Assembly (NCBI GenBank): GCA_030833315.1
Contig: JAURHM010000027.1
Coordinates: forward strand, 1 to 43,199
Length of the DNA: 43,199 nucleotides
Source: Burkholderiales bacterium
GTDB lineage: Bacteria > Pseudomonadota > Gammaproteobacteria > Burkholderiales > SG8-41
Direction of reading: 5' to 3'
Part shown: piece after piece, positions 8,682 through 37,595 of the stretch
Layout of the letters: every line of letters begins with the position of its first letter
Position numbering within the stretch: position 1 is the first letter of the stretch
Notes under the pieces: generated by a model
What the model was told of the DNA's origin: nothing
Database searches by the model: none
The model's input: only the letters and a program-made list of their open reading frames with translations
Translations under genes and position numbers: made by a program

Positions 8682-9647
8682 ATGAAAACATATTCCACAC
8701 TGCTGCTCGTTGTATGGCTCGGCATGTTTGCCGTTTCCGCCACCGGCGCGGACAACTATCCGAACCGTCCCGTACGGATGATCATCCCCAGCGGCGCCGG
8801 CGGTATCACCGACATCATCGGCCGAACCATCGCGCCGAAACTGACCGAAGCCCTCGGCCAGCAGGTGGTGATCGACAACCGCCCCGGCGCCAGCGGCGTA
8901 CTTGGCAGTTCGATCGTTGCGAAATCCGCGCCCGACGGTTACACGCTGCTGATGGTGTTTCCGTCGCATCCGGTGAACCCTGCCCTGTTTCCCGACATTC
9001 CCTTCGATACCGCCAACGCCTTCGCGCCGATCACCATGGTCAGCGCCGTGTCGCCGGTGCTGATCGTCGGCAACGCCTCGCCGGCTAAATCGGTCAAGGA
9101 CCTGCTGGATCTGGCGAAAGCCAGGCCGGGACAACTCAATCACGGCTCGGTTGGTGCCGGCAGCATGGGCTCGCTCGCCGCCGAACTGCTGCGGTCGATG
9201 GCAGGCATCCGCTTCACCCAGGTCGCCTACAAGGGGTCGCCGCAGGCGCTGACCGCCACCATTTCCGGTGAAATCGATTTTTATCTGATCGGCTCCGCCG
9301 GGACCGCCGCCCAGCAGGTCAAGGCCGGCCGCGTGCGTGCACTGGGCGTCGGCGCGAAAACGCGCCTGGCGGTGCTGCCCGACGTGCCGCCCATCGCCGA
9401 TGTACTGCCGGGTTACGAGGCGCGCGGCTGGAACGGCATCCTTGCGCCGGCAGGAACACCGAAACCGGTGATCGACCGCCTCAACCGCGAAATCGTCGCG
9501 ATTACGCGGACTGCGGAATTCACCCAGGTCCTCCTCAGCGAAGGCGCCACAGCCGCGGGCAATTCCCCGGTGGAATTCGACGCGATCATCCGCGCCGACA
9601 TCCGCAAGTGGGCGAAGATCGTCAAGGACAACAACATCAAACAGTAA
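8682..9647 (+). CDS. Bug-family (TTT) periplasmic substrate-binding protein 2
   Basis: Orphan TTT-type receptor, 321 residues. It has a signal peptide at about residues 1-22 (TLLLVVWLGMFAVSATGA), then YPNRPVRMIIPSGAGGITD, QQVVIDNRPGASG, the mid-protein YKGSPQAL loop, TPKPVIDRLN and a C-terminal RKWAKIVKDNNI. The ATG at 8682 is preferred because AAGG lies 7 bases upstream; an in-frame TTG at 8667 has no better signal. It lies 23 bases before an alpha/beta hydrolase on the same strand, so the two are probably co-transcribed. It is divergent from a second hydrolase. This arrangement suggests uptake of an ester or amide that the hydrolases then cleave. Confidence 0.92.
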   Translation: MKTYSTLLLVVWLGMFAVSATGADNYPNRPVRMIIPSGAGGITDIIGRTIAPKLTEALGQQVVIDNRPGASGVLGSSIVAKSAPDGYTLLMVFPSHPVNPALFPDIPFDTANAFAPITMVSAVSPVLIVGNASPAKSVKDLLDLAKARPGQLNHGSVGAGSMGSLAAELLRSMAGIRFTQVAYKGSPQALTATISGEIDFYLIGSAGTAAQQVKAGRVRALGVGAKTRLAVLPDVPPIADVLPGYEARGWNGILAPAGTPKPVIDRLNREIVAITRTAEFTQVLLSEGATAAGNSPVEFDAIIRADIRKWAKIVKDNNIKQ

Positions 9648-11760: not shown

Positions 11761-14700
11761 TCAACCCATCGCAGTCCACAATTTGTCGAGCCGTTTATAC
11801 GACACCGGAAATGGCGTCTTCAGCTCCTGCGCATACAGTGACACGCGCAACTCCTCGATCTGCCAGCGGAACTCGAGCAGGCGCGGATCGACGAGCCCGG
11901 CTTTTTTCTGCTGGTCGAGACGCATTTCAAAACGTCCCCACAGCTGGGCGATGCTCGCCGCATGCTTGCCGTCGCGTTCGGCATTGGCCGGATACTTGGC
12001 GAGACGCATCTGCATCGCCTTGATATAGCGCGGCAGGTGCGTCAGCTGCGACCATGGCGTCGCGCTGAAAAAGCCCTTGTGAATCAGGCGCTGGAGTTGC
12101 GCGCGGATGTCGTTGGCGGCGCGCGCGACATTGCCCTTGGCGGCGCCCAGTGCCAGTGAGAGCTGGTGCACATCGGCGGCAATCGTCACAAACAGGCGGC
12201 AGGCCGCTTCCGAGACGGCCGGCAGCCGCGTACGCGCACGTTTGACCTGATCTTCAAAGGCCTTCAATCCGCGCGGTAACTCATCATCACCGATGAAGGC
12301 ACGGTCGCAGATCGCCGTGATCAGATCGGCGCGCAGGTCATCTGGGCTGGCGATGGTGCGCAGCTGCAGCGCCGCCTGGTCAAAACCTTTCAGATTTTTC
12401 TCCAGCTGACGCATCTGCTCCTTGAGCATCAGCCGCATCAGGCGCACGATGCCGGCGCGCATCGATTCCTGCGCGGCGCTTTCAACATCGAACAGGCGGA
12501 TCGCCACGCTGTCGCCCTCATCCGCCAGCGCGGGATAACCCGTCACCTGTCGGCCGCCGCGGTTGAAGGTGATGGTCGGCGGCAGGTCGCCGAAATCCCA
12601 GACCTTGATGCCTTCGCGCTCGATGCCGGTGGTGGTTTCACTGAAAGTCAGTTGCGCGGCCTCACCCAATTGCGCTTTCAACGCAGCCAGATCGCGCCCG
12701 GTGGCGAGTTCGCGTCCTGATTCATCCACCACCCGGTAGTTGCAGCGCAAATGCAGCGGAAAATCGATGGCCGCGGCTTCATCGCGTGCCAGCGGTGCAC
12801 CAGCGGCACGCGAGGCATAACGCACCACCGCATCGGCAAAGGTGCCGTGAGCCGAACCCTCGGTCTGCAGGAATTTGGTGATGTGCTCGGTCGGCGGCGT
12901 CAGATGACGGCGCCAGTTTTTCGGCAGCGCCTTGAAGGCAAAGGCCACCTTGTCACGGATCATCCCCGGCACCAGCCAGTCAAAGGCCGCGGCGTCGAGC
13001 TTGTTGAGCAAGGCCAGCGGCACAGTGACGGTGATGCCATCGAGCGGATGACCGGGATCAAAACGGTACTTGAGTTTGACTTCGAATTCACCCGCTTTTT
13101 CCCCGACCATGACGCTATCCGGAAACTGCGCTTCGGTAATATCTTCGGCGGCATGGCGCATCAGGTAATCGCGCGTCAGCAGCAGATGGTCGGCATTGTT
13201 CTGTTCAACCGTCTTGCGCCACTGCTCAAAGCCCGCGCCGTTGACGATGTCCTGCGCAATGCGTTCGTCGTAAAAAGCGAAGATCACTTCGTCACTGACC
13301 AGCACATCGCGTTTACGCGCCTTGTGCTCCAGTTCCTGCACTTCCTTTATAAGTCTTTGATTTTGCTGTATGAACTTTGCTGGCGTGGCGTAGTCCGCGG
13401 CGACCAGCGCCTGGCGGATGAATATCTCCCGCGCCTCCTTCGGATTGATCGGGCCGTAATGCACGCGGCGCTTGGGAACGATGGTGATGCCGTACAGCGT
13501 GACACGTTCATAGGCCGTGACCATCGCGCGGTCGCGCTCCCAGTGCGGGTCAAAGTAATGGCGGTCGACCAGATCGCGCGCCAGCGGCTCGATCCATTCC
13601 GGTTCGATACGCGCAACGCAGCGTGCATAAAGCCTTGCGGTATCCACCAGTTCCCCGGCCATCACCCACTTTGGCTGCGCCTTGCGCAGACCCGAGCCCG
13701 GAAAGATCATGAACTTGATGCCGCGCGCGCCGAGATACTCGCCCTCTTCGTTTTTGAAGCCGATATTGCCCAAGAGACCGGCAAGCAAGGCGCGGTGGAT
13801 CTGATCCTCGGTCGCCGGCTTTTCATTCGCCTGCAACCCGAGCTCGGCGGTCAGTGAAGCCAGTTGGCCGTGGATGTCGCGCCACTCGCGCATCCGGCGT
13901 TGTGACAGGAAAAGCTCGGCCAGTTGCTGCGCCAGCTTGCGGTTGGATTGCTTGTGTTTGATCGACTCATCGAAAAAATCCCAGAGCTTCAGATAACTCA
14001 TGAAGTCGGATTTGGCGTCGGCAAACTGCGCGTGCGCACGGTCGGCCGCCTCCGACTTGTCGAAAGGACGGTCGCGCGGGTCCTGCACCGACAGCGCCGA
14101 CGCGATGATCAGCACTTCACGCAGGCAGCTCTCCTGCTTCGCGGCGATGATCATGCGCGCAATGCGCGGATCAATCGGGAATTTGGCAAGCTGCCAGCCG
14201 ACGGGCGTGAGCTGCTTCTGCGCATCCACCGCACCAAGTTCCGCGAGCAACTGGTAGCCGTCGGTAATCATCCGCGGCGTCGGCGCCTCCAGGAAAGGAA
14301 AATCCTCGACATCGCCGATGCGCAGCGCCTTCATGCGCAGGATCACATGCGCCAGCGAAGAGCGCAGGATTTCCGGATCGGTGTACTGCGGCCGCGCGTT
14401 GTAATCGTCCTCATCATAGAGCCGGATCGCCACACCGGCAGCCACGCGGCCGCAGCGGCCGGCGCGCTGGTTGGCAGAGGCGCGCGACACCTTCTCGATT
14501 TGCAGCTGCTCAACCTTGTTGCGGTAGCTGTAACGATTGACCCGGGCCAGCCCGGTATCCACGACATAATGAATACCCGGCACAGTCAGCGAGGTTTCGG
14601 CGACGTTGGTGGCGAGCACGATGCGCCGCGCACCATGCGCCCGGAACACCTCATCCTGCTCTTCAAAGGACAATCGCGCATACAGCGGCAGGATTTCCGC

Positions 14701-32402: not shown

Positions 32403-34022
32403 TCAGACAATCTCGCCGCCCGTTTCATCGTTTGCATTAACGGCAATCCAGTGCGTAACCCGCGGCGGCCCTTCCCCGCGGTGAAATGCGCGCACCCGCT
32501 CGAACAGCGGCGCATCACCCGCCGTTCCGCGATGATGCTGGCGCATATGCTCGGCCCAGGACTCGACGACAAAGGTTTCAATATAACGCCCGGCAGCATC
32601 CGGATCTTCAAATAATCCCCAGGACAAGGCCCCGTCCCGACGACGGATGCGTTGCATACCCTGCGCCACAGCCACAAACGCGCCGGCATCTTCCGGTGCA
32701 ATGCGGTATTCGACGTGTACGGCGACCGGTCCGCGTTCCAGTGCAATCTCCGCGTGTCCCGATGAACGCATCAGCGCGGCCGGCGCGCTGCTGGCCAGAC
32801 CGTCCTCACCGCCCAGTGTCAGCCGCCGGGTCAGCAGCATGGCCAGCAGTGCACCGGCAGCCGACAGCAGCAGCGCCTGCGGCACGCCGCCGCGCGCGGC
32901 CAGCGCACCCCACAACACCGCACCTCCGGTCATGGCCGCGGCATAAACCATCAGATAGACCGAAAGCGCGCGGGCACGCACCCATTGCGGCACGGCGGTC
33001 TGCGCACTGACATGCAGCGTCGACAGCAGTGCGAGCCAAGCCGCGCCGCAGGCCAATACGCCGGGCAATAACAGAAACAGATTCCCGGCCAGCGCAACCG
33101 CTGCCGTACCCGCGGCATAAACCACCGTCGCGCCGCACACCAGCACATCACGGCTGCAACGACGCCGCAAAGCCGGCATGAACAGCGCCGCACTGACCGC
33201 ACCTGCGCCGATGCCGGCGAGCAGCAGACCATAGGTACCCGCCCCACCACCGGTGTTTTGCGCCACCAGCGGCAGCAAGGACCAGGTGGCTGATGAAAAA
33301 ACAAAAAAACCGGCAGCACGCCCCATTACATACTGCAACGCCGTGGCTTCGCGCACATAACGCACACCGGCACGCAAAGCGCCGGAGAAACGTTCGGCCG
33401 GCAGGGTGCTGGGCGAAGGCTGGCGCGGCCAGCGCACCAGGACAACGATCACGCCGATAAAAGAAAAGGCGTTGAGCATGAACGCGGCCTGCGGCCCCGA
33501 AGCCGCGACAATCACCCCGGCCAGCGCCGGGCCGACGGCACGTGCGAGATTGATGCCGAGGCTGTTCAATGCAATCGCCGCCTGCAACTGACCGCGCGGC
33601 ACGATTTCGTGAACCGTCGCCGCCCACGCCGGCGTATTCAATGCCGCACCGCAAGCCAGCGCAAAACTGAAGGCCAGCAGGCCCCAGGCATTCATCCAGC
33701 CCATTGCCGTGGTGATCGCCAGCACCAGCACCACCATCAGCATCCAGACCTGGGTATAAATCAGGTAACGCCGACGGTCGAGAATGTCGGCGAGCGCGCC
33801 TCCGGGCAGGGCAAGCAGGAAAATCGGCAGCGCGGTCGCGGCTTGCACCAGCGACACCATCAGGGGATTCGGATTCAGTGTGACCATCAGCCAGCCCGCC
33901 CCCACCTCATGCACCCAGGTGCCGATATTGGAAACCAGCGTGGCGATCCACAGCGCGCGGAAGAGCGGCTGGCGCAAAGGCGCCCAGGCGGATGGCGGCG
34001 ATTCAGTTTTGGGATCAGTCAT
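32403..34022 (-). CDS. MFS transporter fused to a C-terminal ABM-like ferredoxin-fold domain
   Basis: 539-residue fusion. Residues about 1-405 are a 12-helix MFS carrier of the EntS/DUF894 group (LVSNIGTWVHEVGAGWLMV..NPNPLMVSLVQAA, loop ADILDRRRYL). Residues about 425-539 form a soluble domain like antibiotic-biosynthesis monooxygenase (ABM) proteins: VHVEYRIAPEDAGAFVAVAQGMQRIRRRDGALSWGLFED, then FVVESWAEHMRQH. The tail may sense or bind a small molecule, or be a partner of export. Substrate unknown. The ATG at 34022 is chosen because family N-termini start near there; the longer frame adds a dozen non-conserved residues. Confidence 0.9.
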   Translation of the reverse strand: MTDPKTESPPSAWAPLRQPLFRALWIATLVSNIGTWVHEVGAGWLMVTLNPNPLMVSLVQAATALPIFLLALPGGALADILDRRRYLIYTQVWMLMVVLVLAITTAMGWMNAWGLLAFSFALACGAALNTPAWAATVHEIVPRGQLQAAIALNSLGINLARAVGPALAGVIVAASGPQAAFMLNAFSFIGVIVVLVRWPRQPSPSTLPAERFSGALRAGVRYVREATALQYVMGRAAGFFVFSSATWSLLPLVAQNTGGGAGTYGLLLAGIGAGAVSAALFMPALRRRCSRDVLVCGATVVYAAGTAAVALAGNLFLLLPGVLACGAAWLALLSTLHVSAQTAVPQWVRARALSVYLMVYAAAMTGGAVLWGALAARGGVPQALLLSAAGALLAMLLTRRLTLGGEDGLASSAPAALMRSSGHAEIALERGPVAVHVEYRIAPEDAGAFVAVAQGMQRIRRRDGALSWGLFEDPDAAGRYIETFVVESWAEHMRQHHRGTAGDAPLFERVRAFHRGEGPPRVTHWIAVNANDETGGEIV

Positions 34023-34078
34023 GACTTGAAGGCGGCGAGGCGCCATCATAACCGAGCGCATGACCGGTGCACCGCAGC

Positions 34079-34321
34079 TCAGATAACGGCAAAGACGTCC
34101 ACAGGACCGCCCGACTCGATCCAGGCGTCAATACCGTCTTCCAGCGGCCGCACGCGGGTAGATCCGCAGTTCATCAGGATGCATGCGACACGCACCGCAC
34201 TGACTCCATTGGGTCAACTGCAATAGACCACCACATCGCGGTCCGGTGGTATGCCGGACAGCGCGGGGGCCGCATCATCCAGATTGACCGGCACCGCCGG
34301 CAGCGAACCCGTCATCAGCAT
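34079..34321 (-). pseudogene. Rhodanese-domain relic with in-frame TGA at a conserved Cys
   Basis: Read leftward from ATG 34321, the frame gives SLPAVPVNLDDAAPALSGIP, DRDVVVYCS, then TGA (34214-34216), then PNGVSAVRVACILMNCGS and RVRPLEDGIDAWIESGGPV to a stop at 34079. This is the second half of a rhodanese (sulfurtransferase) domain of the kind often joined to DedA membrane proteins. The homologous active loop is CxCPNE, so the TGA replaces the second Cys. The N-terminal half of the domain cannot be recognised upstream. Both facts point to a decayed gene. A selenocysteine reading of the TGA would need an intact upstream part, which I do not see. It lies 3' of the RND operon. Confidence 0.7.
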
Positions 34322-34526
34322 TTCCCGGCTGAACGGGCTGCAAAAGGGAAAACCACACGCGACGACATTGTCAGCCGCTGCGGCAAACACAGTATCCACT
34401 CGGACCACATGGACGGATGCACACCTCGGCTTACCTGCAACCGGGACGGCGCGCTGATGCGGCAGATCAGGTGTTCGTGCCTGGCTGGCTGGACCGTGGA
34501 TTGCGCGCCCAGTAAAACCTGGTCGA
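34322..34526. other. Unassigned interval between rhodanese relic and RND gene
   Basis: About 205 bases, read leftward from the RND stop codon. Stop-free frames exist but none resembles a known family, and the codon pattern looks unordered. It could hold eroded sequence of the rhodanese-containing gene. No hairpin with a T-run and no promoter is evident. Confidence 0.5.
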
Positions 34527-37500
34527 TCAGTGCGTTCCCGGCGCGATCTCGACGGTATGCCGCTGGCCGGCGATATAGGTATAGGCAACGGGAATCACAA
34601 ACAGCGTAAACAGCGTGCCGATGGTCATGCCGCCGACCACCACCCAGCCGATGGCCGAGCGTGATTCAGCACCGGCACCGGTGGCAATCGCCAGCGGCAC
34701 CGCACCCAGAACCGTTGCCGCCGTGGTCATCAGGATCGGCCGCAGGCGCAGCGCACAGGCCTCGACCAGCGCCTCGACCTTTTCATGACCCTTGTCGCGC
34801 AACTGGTTGGCGAACTCGACAATGAGAATACCGTTCTTGGTGATCAGCCCGATCAGCATCACCAGGCCGATCTGGCTGTAGACATTAAGCGTGCCGCCGG
34901 TCAGTTTGATCGCCAGTAAAGCACCGGTCATGGCCAGCGGCACGGTCAGCATGATCACCAGCGGGCCGCGGAAGCTCTCGAACTGCGCTGCCAGCACCAG
35001 ATAGATGAATGCCAGCGCAAGAATGAAGATCAGATAAAGCTGCTTGCCCGATTCACGGAATTCGCGCGACTGCCCGTCCAGCGCCGTCTGATAGTCCGGC
35101 GTCAGAACCTCGTTCGCCGCCTGATCCAGCGTGCCCAACGCTTCCGAGAGCGTGTATCCCGGCGCCACGTTCGCGGAAATGATCGCCGCACGCAGCCGGT
35201 TGAAGTGATTCAGCTCCTTGGGGGCCACCGTTTCGGTCAACGACACCAAGTTAGACAGTTGCGAGATGTCGCCGCGCGAACCGCGCACATAGATCGAAGT
35301 CAGGTCGTTCGGCTGGCGGCGGTCCTTGTCCTCGAGTTTGACGATCACGTCATATTGCTTGCCCTCGCGCTTGAAGCGCGTCACCTGACGACCACCGAGC
35401 AGGGTTTCCAGCGCACGGCCGATGGCTTCGACCTGGATGCCCAGCGCTGCCGCTTTCTCACGATCAATGACTACAGACAGTTGCGGCTTGTTGAGCTTGA
35501 GATCGCTGTCGACGTTGGTCAGCGCCGGCGAGCGCCGCGCCTTGGCCATCAAGGCCGTAACCGAGCGGTCGAGTTCCTCGTAGGAATTGCCCTGCACCAC
35601 AAACTGCACCGGCGGGTTGCGGAAATTCTGACCCAGCGACGGCGGATTGATCGGGAAGGCCAGCACGCCGGGCATGGTCGCGAACATCTTCGGTGCAATT
35701 GACGCGGTGACTTCCTGCGTCTTGCGTGTGCGTTCTGCCCAGTCCGTCAGCCGCACGAAAGACAACGCAAAGTTCACGGGATTGGGCCGGTCCAGTCCCG
35801 GCGCCACCACCACAAAATAGGAACTTATTTCCGGAACCGCGGCATAAATGCCCTCCCAGGCCCGCGCATAGTCATCCGTGTATTCCTTGGTGGCACCTTC
35901 CGGCGCGACCATCACCCCGAGAAAAAAGCCGCGATCCTCCAGCGGCGACAGCTCGGACTTGATGGTCAGAAACAATGCGGCGCCGCCGGCCGCGAGCAGC
36001 ACAAACAGCGCGACAACCACACCACGATGCGCCAGACTGCGCCGCAGCAGGCGTTCATACCCCGCAGCCATGCCTTCAAAAAACCGTTCCAACGCGTTGT
36101 AGACCGGGCCATGTGAGGCCTCATGACGCAGCAGTTTCGAACACATCATCGGCGTCAGTGTCAGCGCAACGAAACCCGACACCGCGACCGCCGCGGCCAC
36201 CGTCAACGCGAACTCGAGGAACAGTCGCCCGGTATTGCCCGTGGCAAATGCCAGCGGCGCGAACACCGCGGCCAGCGTCACCGTCATCGCCACCACGGCA
36301 AAAGCGATTTCACGGCCGCCGGTCAGCGATGCCTCGACCGGCGTCATGCCATTCTCAATGTGGCGATGGATATTCTCCAGAACCACGATCGCATCATCCA
36401 CCACCAGACCGACCGCGAGCACGATGCCCAGCAGCGTCAGCACGTTGATCGAAAAACCCATCAGCCAGATCAGGAAAAACGCACCGACCAGCGACACCGG
36501 TATGGTCACGAAGGGAATCAGCGTCGCGCGCAGCGAACGCAGGAACAGGAAAATCACCAGCACCACCAGCACCAGCGCCTCAATCATCACACTGTAAACC
36601 GAAGTGATTGATTTTTCGATGAATACCGAAGTATCAAAGGCCACAGCGATTTGCATGCCCGGCGGCAGTGCCGCAGCGATTTTCGGCACTTCGGCCTTCA
36701 CGGCCTGCGCCACCGCCAGCGTGTTCGCCGTCGACTGTTTGACGATGCCCAGACCCACGGCCGGCTTGCCGTCGACGCGCAGGATGTTGCGCTCATCCAC
36801 GGCGCCAAGCTCGGCGCGACCGACATCGCTCAGCCGCACAGGATAACCTTTGACTTCACGAATGATCAGCTGGTTGAACTGTTCCGGAGAGCGCAGATCG
36901 GATTCGGAAAGCACGGTGAATTCGCGCTGCGTGCTTTCGATGCGGCCGGAAGGCACTTCAATATTCTGGCGACGCAGCGCATCTTCGATATCCAGCGGCG
37001 TCAGTGCATAAGCCGCGAGCCGTTCGCGGTCCAACCAGATGCGCATTGCATAACGCCGCTCACCACCGATGATCACCGACGCGACGCCCGGCAAGGTCTT
37101 CAAACGGTCCGCGACATAACGGTCGGCATAGTCGGAAATCTCCAGCGCCGCATGCTGATCCGAGAACAGCCGCAACCAAACGATGGCCTGGGCATCGGCC
37201 TCGACCTTGGCGATGATCGGCTCCTTGACCTCCAGCGGCAGCCGGTCGCGCGCCCGTGATACCCGATCTCGCACATCGCTCGCTGCCAGGTCGGGATTGC
37301 GGTCGTTGGTGAACTCCACCGTGATCTGGCTGACCTCCTCGCGGCTGACCGATTTCAACGTCTTCACACCCTCGATGCCGGAGATGCTGTCTTCCAGCGG
37401 CTGGGTCACCTGCGATTCAATGACCTGCGGACTGGCGCCGGTGTACACCGTGCGCACCGATACCACCGGCGTATCGATTTTTGGGTATTCGCGAACAGTC

Positions 37501-37595
37501 AGGCGGTCAAACGCGATGATACCGATCAGCACGATCAGCAGACTCATCACCGTGGCCAGCACGGGACGCTTGACAGAAATCTCCGGCAGAAACAT
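34527..37595 (-). CDS. RND efflux transporter permease (HAE1 type)
   Basis: 1022-residue inner-membrane proton-drug antiporter. It starts MFLPEISVKRPVLATVMSLL as in the AcrB/MdtB/VexF group, has GGERRYAMRIWLD and the paired membrane Asp residues in GLVVDDAIVVLENIHRH (equivalents of D407/D408 of AcrB), and the symmetrical GLVMLIGLITKNGILIVEFANQLRD motif in the second half. It exports hydrophobic compounds from the periplasm through a trimeric pump. It follows its adaptor gene by 14 bases with AGGAAAG at the start. No outer-membrane channel (TolC/OprM) gene follows, so it must share one encoded elsewhere. No intact regulator is adjacent. Confidence 0.94.
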   Translation of the reverse strand: MFLPEISVKRPVLATVMSLLIVLIGIIAFDRLTVREYPKIDTPVVSVRTVYTGASPQVIESQVTQPLEDSISGIEGVKTLKSVSREEVSQITVEFTNDRNPDLAASDVRDRVSRARDRLPLEVKEPIIAKVEADAQAIVWLRLFSDQHAALEISDYADRYVADRLKTLPGVASVIIGGERRYAMRIWLDRERLAAYALTPLDIEDALRRQNIEVPSGRIESTQREFTVLSESDLRSPEQFNQLIIREVKGYPVRLSDVGRAELGAVDERNILRVDGKPAVGLGIVKQSTANTLAVAQAVKAEVPKIAAALPPGMQIAVAFDTSVFIEKSITSVYSVMIEALVLVVLVIFLFLRSLRATLIPFVTIPVSLVGAFFLIWLMGFSINVLTLLGIVLAVGLVVDDAIVVLENIHRHIENGMTPVEASLTGGREIAFAVVAMTVTLAAVFAPLAFATGNTGRLFLEFALTVAAAVAVSGFVALTLTPMMCSKLLRHEASHGPVYNALERFFEGMAAGYERLLRRSLAHRGVVVALFVLLAAGGAALFLTIKSELSPLEDRGFFLGVMVAPEGATKEYTDDYARAWEGIYAAVPEISSYFVVVAPGLDRPNPVNFALSFVRLTDWAERTRKTQEVTASIAPKMFATMPGVLAFPINPPSLGQNFRNPPVQFVVQGNSYEELDRSVTALMAKARRSPALTNVDSDLKLNKPQLSVVIDREKAAALGIQVEAIGRALETLLGGRQVTRFKREGKQYDVIVKLEDKDRRQPNDLTSIYVRGSRGDISQLSNLVSLTETVAPKELNHFNRLRAAIISANVAPGYTLSEALGTLDQAANEVLTPDYQTALDGQSREFRESGKQLYLIFILALAFIYLVLAAQFESFRGPLVIMLTVPLAMTGALLAIKLTGGTLNVYSQIGLVMLIGLITKNGILIVEFANQLRDKGHEKVEALVEACALRLRPILMTTAATVLGAVPLAIATGAGAESRSAIGWVVVGGMTIGTLFTLFVIPVAYTYIAGQRHTVEIAPGTH

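Follow-up and report, generated by a model that had tools for sequence, protein, structure and literature searches.

The fragment and its locus

The window, a stretch of 43,199 nucleotides from a draft Burkholderiales genome, carries a partial rhodanese frame on the minus strand at 34321-34079, which covers the latter half of the domain. The frame translates as MLMTGSLPAVPVNLDDAAPALSGIPPDRDVVVYCS*PNGVSAVRVACILMNCGSTRVRPLEDGIDAWIESGGPVDVFAVI*, in which the first asterisk is a single in-frame TGA. This codon lies at 34216-34214, at the second position of the rhodanese C-x-C loop, as the earlier note had it, with YCS before it and PNGVSAVRVA after it. The frame is kept on both sides, as was also claimed, and no other stop occurs from the ATG at 34321 to the terminal TGA at 34081-34079. 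The fragment gives a partial, weak match to the rhodanese profile PF00581, covering profile positions 42-101 of 102, which agrees with the earlier observation that the first half of the domain is absent. Its score was 22.2 bits in a whole-genome scan, equal to the cut-off of 22.2, and fell below the cut-off when the fragment was scanned as a 169-aa frame (20.7 bits). The features of this part of the window are listed here in plain words.

32403..34061, minus strand: MFS_3 transporter, conserved flank
34079..34297, minus strand: relic, read as the 3' end (last ~70 codons) of a gene for a DedA-rhodanese selenoprotein (translation, PF00581, 77% identity to G020 and G027, blastn)
34178..34216, minus strand: decayed SECIS region, with hairpin columns 19-36 at 34198-34181
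34216-34214, minus strand: in-frame TGA, second position of the C-x-[C/U] loop (C-S-U-P), corresponding by homology to the Sec codon that the intact family conserves
34298..34464, no strand: gap between conserved blocks, 167 bp without significant match to intact loci
34465..34515, plus strand: LysR-type regulator remnant, last 16 codons and stop (blastn; match to LysR residues 286-301)
34527..37595, minus strand: RND transporter (ACR_tran, PF00873), conserved flank, 92.6% identical to its G020 counterpart

Within the bacterial family, the fragment reaches its highest identity (77%) with genomes G020 and G027. The gene order in G020 is RND, LysR, pirin, FMN reductase, LigB-type dioxygenase, DedA-rhodanese and MFS_3. 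DNA homology of the window to the intact gene ends at 34297, and 34298-34321 falls in unmatched sequence. The LysR gene is complete in G020, and its remnant in the window translates as DQVFVPGWLDRGLRAQ*. Using blastn, window positions 33901-34297 were matched to 8863-9259 of the locus L064 from a relative, and 34465-34700 to 13188-13422 of the same locus. From the positions of these two blocks, 3.93 kb of the intact G020 arrangement, including the DedA part of the gene, corresponds to 167 bp in the window. These 167 bp (34298-34464) had no significant match to five intact loci or to the G026 scar, and are a deletion scar, degraded remains or foreign filler. Compared with intact orthologues at the same locus, essential parts of the gene are lost. 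A deletion very probably took most of the LysR gene, the pirin, FMN reductase and LigB genes and, from the selenoprotein gene, its first three quarters; the remaining quarter is now drifting.

The deletion is read from a single draft assembly (3.10 Mb, 105 contigs, 98.1% complete). This and the unexplained 167-bp junction would fit an assembly artefact, in which the real operon is intact and the contig is chimeric or collapsed. However, both flanks are colinear with relatives, the retained coding part has replacements of its own, no intact or second copy was found elsewhere in the 98.1%-complete assembly, and sister genomes show separate losses. We therefore consider an artefact highly improbable. 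Plasmid records gave no DNA match to the region.

The sister genomes differ in what they retain. In G029, the MFS gene is 95% identical and the match ends at window position 34158, after which the sequence diverges. In G026, the match reaches position 34173 and is followed by a different internal junction, and in G017 the match is confined to a part of the MFS gene. Since these remnants differ from each other and from that of the window, there appear to be at least three end states of the loss in one genus.

The TGA codon in relatives and the selenocysteine machinery

The 80-aa fragment was used as a query against 74 genomes of the same family. This search gave 52 matching rows in 51 of the 74 genomes, the window's own row included, and an in-frame TGA was present in 51 of the 52 rows. 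The only row without it, G026, is a shorter match that starts past that codon. Because family matches at 43-77% identity also carry an in-frame TGA, the one in the window is not due to chance. Of the 52 rows, 30 had loci that were inspected, one from the window and 29 from relatives, and all 30 contain [YF]C-x-TGA. The earlier note had implied a TGC-to-TGA change in the window copy; this was not supported, since the inspected close relatives have TGA at the site and not TGC (29/29). An extra TAG besides the TGA was seen in G004 (C15:21454-21618), G069 (C11:26957-27163) and L073 (codon 72 of the frame). These family members are possibly decaying copies or sequence errors.

At the level of the order, 399 genomes were searched and 58 rows were found in 53 genomes. 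In the best 30 of these 58 rows, which were the ones inspected, the site is TGA in 11 and Cys in 19. Genomes G187 and G247 carried "1 TGA" in the search listing and were rejected as TGA forms, since the site is Cys in each. In a quick tree built from 68 Sec and 19 Cys fusions, three Sec/Cys changes are required, of which well-supported branches force only one; the tree is compatible with different numbers of origins.

The presence of selA, selB, selC and selD had been proposed as a check, and selA, selB, tRNA-Sec and selD were all found in the window genome. The scores were 570.9 bits for selA, 423.3 bits (cut-off 242.25) for selB, a 673-aa ORF after selA, 75.9 bits (gathering score 47) for tRNA-Sec and 414.4 bits for selD. 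The SelD of this genome carries a Sec codon of its own, SHGGG-U-GCK (L011, contig C51:34571-35500). Further Sec genes were sought among the molybdopterin oxidoreductase genes of the window genome, and none was clear. According to the available text of a 2006 survey, the Sec-decoding Betaproteobacteria sequenced by that time had the fdhA product as their sole selenoprotein (PMC1794560).

Within the family, selA scored above the cut-off in 67 of 74 genomes (47 of the 50 that have a TGA match, 20 of the 24 that lack one), and its co-occurrence with the TGA is therefore uninformative at this level. In a wider set, selA was above the cut-off in 14 of 15 genomes with Sec forms, the exception being the genome of L155, and in 1 of 14 control genomes. 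Eleven of the 15 are not betaproteobacterial by title.

These results bear on the reading of the fragment as an ordinary pseudogene, in which truncation of a Cys-type DedA-rhodanese gene was followed by a TGC-to-TGA nonsense mutation. Although the fragment is truncated and Cys forms do occur in the order, this history is very unlikely given the TGA at the same codon in all 29 inspected family relatives, the Sec machinery in the genome and a downstream RNA that is conserved in the TGA forms and not in the Cys forms (next section). Instead, the TGA is very probably an inherited Sec codon, from a gene for a membrane rhodanese selenoprotein that many relatives have intact and of which the window keeps the decaying last quarter.

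The hairpin after the UGA and its decay in the window

In the relatives, a hairpin lies 16-33 nt past the UGA, within the coding sequence. Synonymous conservation was scored in 28 relatives, with L034 and the short L059 left out. Codons +1 to +11 hold eight fourfold-degenerate sites that could be scored, and six of these have an entropy of <=0.25 bits, compared to 0/82 outside codons -3 to +13.

To collect more sites, genome contigs were scanned with a pattern that fixed columns 19, 20, 22, 29, 31 and 32, limited column 23 to C or T and left columns 21, 24-28, 30 and 33-36 free. The scan returned 78 contigs, which gave 56 distinct 39-nt rows after 22 repeats were dropped; 68 of the 78 contigs, with frames of >=290 residues, entered the protein alignment. 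By title, the contigs belong to Betaproteobacteria or Burkholderiales, Acidobacteriota (including Thermoanaerobaculia and gp7), Rokubacteria (one), Candidatus Brocadia (two) and a Deltaproteobacterium (one), and some labels are doubtful. In Brocadia and the Deltaproteobacterium, the frames have 115-155 codons and encode standalone rhodaneses. Five MAG contigs (L111, L123, L134, L140 and L125) are titled Bordetella parapertussis (four) or Chitinophaga pinensis (one). These species labels look wrong, since the fusion genes group with uncultured Betaproteobacteria in the quick tree.

Across the 56 distinct sites, a hairpin of columns 19-24 with 30-36, in which column 34 is bulged, has 95.5% of its cells paired. 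Pair 24-30 is G-C in 34 sites, C-G in 22 and broken in none. Pair 21-33 is G-C in 37, G-U in 7, C-G in 4, U-A in 3 and unpaired in 5. Columns 21, 24, 30 and 33 are third codon positions, and pairs 22-32 and 23-31 are not independent evidence because their columns were preset by the scan pattern. The covariation score was 0.265 against a shuffled mean of 0.075, and none of 500 shuffles scored as high. Two cruder counts were not above the shuffles (both-sides-changed pairs 2 vs 1.7; pair types 5 vs 3.9). The 22 rows with C-G at 24-30 are the Acidobacteriota, Rokubacteria, Brocadia and Deltaproteobacterium loci, so this swap follows the division of the titles into a betaproteobacterial type and the rest and may have happened only once. 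Changes at 21-33 occur both inside and outside the C-G groups. The hairpin loop is CGUGU in 50/56 sites, CGGGU in 4/56 and GGUCU in 2/56. The Cys forms are without the hairpin or loop: in the 14 of 19 that a motif search recognised, 24-30 can pair in 6 and 21-33 in 2. Conservation and covariation thus support the hairpin of the relatives as a predicted SECIS guiding Sec insertion.

Rfam detected no SECIS in window positions 33900-34700, and none either in four intact Sec loci or around selD. A purpose-built SECIS model, R1, was used in its place. The relic scored 23.8 bits with R1, while 12 intact Sec sites, which are not independent of the model, scored 54.8-66 and 19 Cys loci scored at most 25.8. 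The relic was the only match below E 0.1 in the window genome. With a score in the range of the Cys loci, the window copy does not have an intact SECIS. Pairs 19-36, 20-35, 22-32 and 24-30 are still standard in the relic, and 23-31 is a wobble. When the 48 nt after the TGA were folded as single sequences, competing structures appeared. Since the relic's own fold is a different hairpin, we do not claim that it still forms a SECIS. The SECIS-like hairpin that the earlier note had looked for after the TGA is thus found in the intact genes, and only a weakened version is left in the window copy. In its ancestral state, the gene has the marks of a bacterial selenoprotein gene: a conserved UGA with Cys homologues at the same site, genes for Sec biosynthesis and insertion, and the putative SECIS hairpin in its intact relatives.

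Coding changes in the relic were compared with those in its relatives. At positions invariant in five relatives, the relic has 13 private changes, distributed 4/5/4 over the three codon positions; for comparison, 5/7 private changes in L036 and 2/2 in L035 fall at third positions. Several of the relic's replacements affect residues common to the aligned relatives. Over 68 codons, dN/dS was 0.11-0.25 for four relic-relative pairs and 0.07-0.17 for five intact pairs. As the relic values are only slightly above those of the intact pairs and no extra stop is present, relaxed selection is not evident and the inactivation of the window copy must have been recent.

The same data could be taken to mean that the 80-aa frame from the ATG at 34321 is translated with Sec as a minimal working selenoprotein. 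The low dN/dS against four relatives, the lack of an extra stop and the four standard hairpin pairs with the wobble at 23-31 would agree with this. However, such a protein would have a rhodanese fold without its first half and replacements at shared residues, its R1 score is far from the 54.8-66 bits of intact sites, and two sister genomes (G026 and G029) retain even less of the gene. A working minimal selenoprotein is accordingly hard to credit. The preference for a pseudogene in the earlier note holds, supported by the truncation, the SECIS decay and the remnants in sister genomes; what decays is, very probably, a selenoprotein gene.

The intact protein and known systems

In the G020 protein, residues 29-155 form a VTT/DedA domain (PF09335) and residues 207-302 a rhodanese domain (PF00581). 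The intact gene product in relatives has ~313 residues, and the frame length is 310-350 residues in 24/29 relatives. The active loop reads Y-C-x-U-P-N-E-A-S-A-A-R-V-A. An AlphaFold2 model of the intact protein, made with a 42-sequence alignment, had a mean pLDDT of 89.2 and a pTM of 0.79. In a Foldseek search against the PDB, rhodanese-domain structures such as 3ilm and GlpE (1gmx) were on top among the best 50 of 353 matches.

In an alignment of the L170 protein with 86 other full-length fusions, the DedA part has a CX8C pair, Cys89 and Cys98, that is invariant among both the Sec forms (68/68) and the Cys forms (19/19). Arg at reference position 283, whose codon lies inside the hairpin loop, is invariant in the 68 Sec forms, while this position is L, Q or K in 13/19 Cys forms. 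The CX8C pair and the CxU loop suggest, from sequence, a dithiol/selenol relay in a membrane protein for sulfur or selenium transfer. In the intact genes, the UGA is probably read as selenocysteine by SelB and tRNA-Sec under the guidance of the hairpin. The loop Cys would carry a persulfide or selenium, and the neighboring Sec could resolve the persulfide as a selenenyl-sulfide. Electrons or sulfur might then pass to or from the CX8C pair in the DedA domain. Our tentative hypothesis, somewhat less probable than its opposite, is that the intact protein is a membrane-bound device for sulfur/selenium transfer or thiol redox.

A broader proposal, which we hold to be evenly balanced, is that the fragment represents, as a fossil, a family of DedA-rhodanese CxU membrane selenoproteins that is so far undescribed and is found in MAG contigs titled Betaproteobacteria, Acidobacteriota and, once, Rokubacteria. 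Its CxU/CX8C selenol/thiol relay would be coupled to membrane transport or envelope redox, and in the window genus several independent deletions would be removing the gene from genomes that retain the Sec machinery. The relic leads in this way to a membrane-fused rhodanese selenoprotein in Betaproteobacteria and Acidobacteriota. The family may have been missed because annotation that halts at the TGA would cut the genes just past the loop Cys. Since Sec/Cys pairs and a well-defined SECIS are available, the effect of Sec on a rhodanese loop is testable by swaps in one scaffold.

A literature search found no paper joining selenoprotein or selenocysteine with rhodanese and DedA, or VTT domain with selenoprotein. 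DedA-rhodanese selenoprotein fusions are without mention in the available text of PMC13188914, PMC9312934, PMC12013277, PMC5029168, PMC2398784 and PMC1794560, and a term search for DedA gave no match in that of PMC13188914, PMC12013277, PMC5029168 and PMC2398784. The word "undescribed" is provisional, as the literature covered is without supplements, most subscription papers and preprints.

In two Candidatus Brocadia contigs, a c-di-GMP-I-GGC riboswitch (RF03167, gathering score 59) was observed at L168:6593-6698 (61.3 bits) and L153:6309-6420 on the minus strand (68.6 bits). It precedes the standalone Sec-rhodanese gene, with 79 and 85 nt, respectively, between it and the first in-frame start, suggesting a candidate second-messenger control of a selenoprotein in Brocadia.

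The nearest described family is NF041203 (rhodanese_LYCAU), named "Rhodanese-like domain-containing protein form 3, CxU" in the available text of PMC13188914. As in the intact fusion, Sec occupies the second position of the C-x-U loop in its rhodanese domain. It was the best NCBIfam match of both the G020 fusion (71 bits) and the relic (33.9 bits). However, neither the relic nor any of the five fusions scored (60-86 bits; one is a Cys form) attained its curated cut-off of 115, and these fusions reached no other NCBIfam cut-off. The model has 126 positions, and in the fusions only the rhodanese part was matched. Among the standalone proteins, the delta-proteobacterial L175 passes with 165.6 bits and the Brocadia protein L168 scores 65.3.

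TsoB (NF045694) is given as a rhodanese/DsbD fusion-like selenoprotein in the same available text (PMC13188914). It resembles the intact gene in being a rhodanese-containing fusion selenoprotein, but its motif is UxxxxU, with two Sec. The sole TsoB match seen was the standalone L175 (25.1 bits, cut-off 805), and no DedA fusion was matched.

The domain pair itself is known, as COG0586 DedA-rhodanese fusions with the same two domains as the selenoprotein are noted in the available text of PMC10127716, where the link between rhodanese and undecaprenyl phosphate is called unclear. For the COG0586 DedA undecaprenyl-phosphate flippases, the same text gives acidic and Arg residues at the re-entrant tips as essential (Glu39, Asp51, Arg130 and Arg136 in YghB), and "selen" occurs in it only within the title of one reference, which deals with DedA and selenite resistance. 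The Cys-type DedA-rhodanese fusions (19 of the inspected best 30 order-level loci) share the loop, with Cys in it. The selenoprotein fusion differs from them by Sec in place of the second loop Cys and by an RNA hairpin that is absent from the Cys forms.
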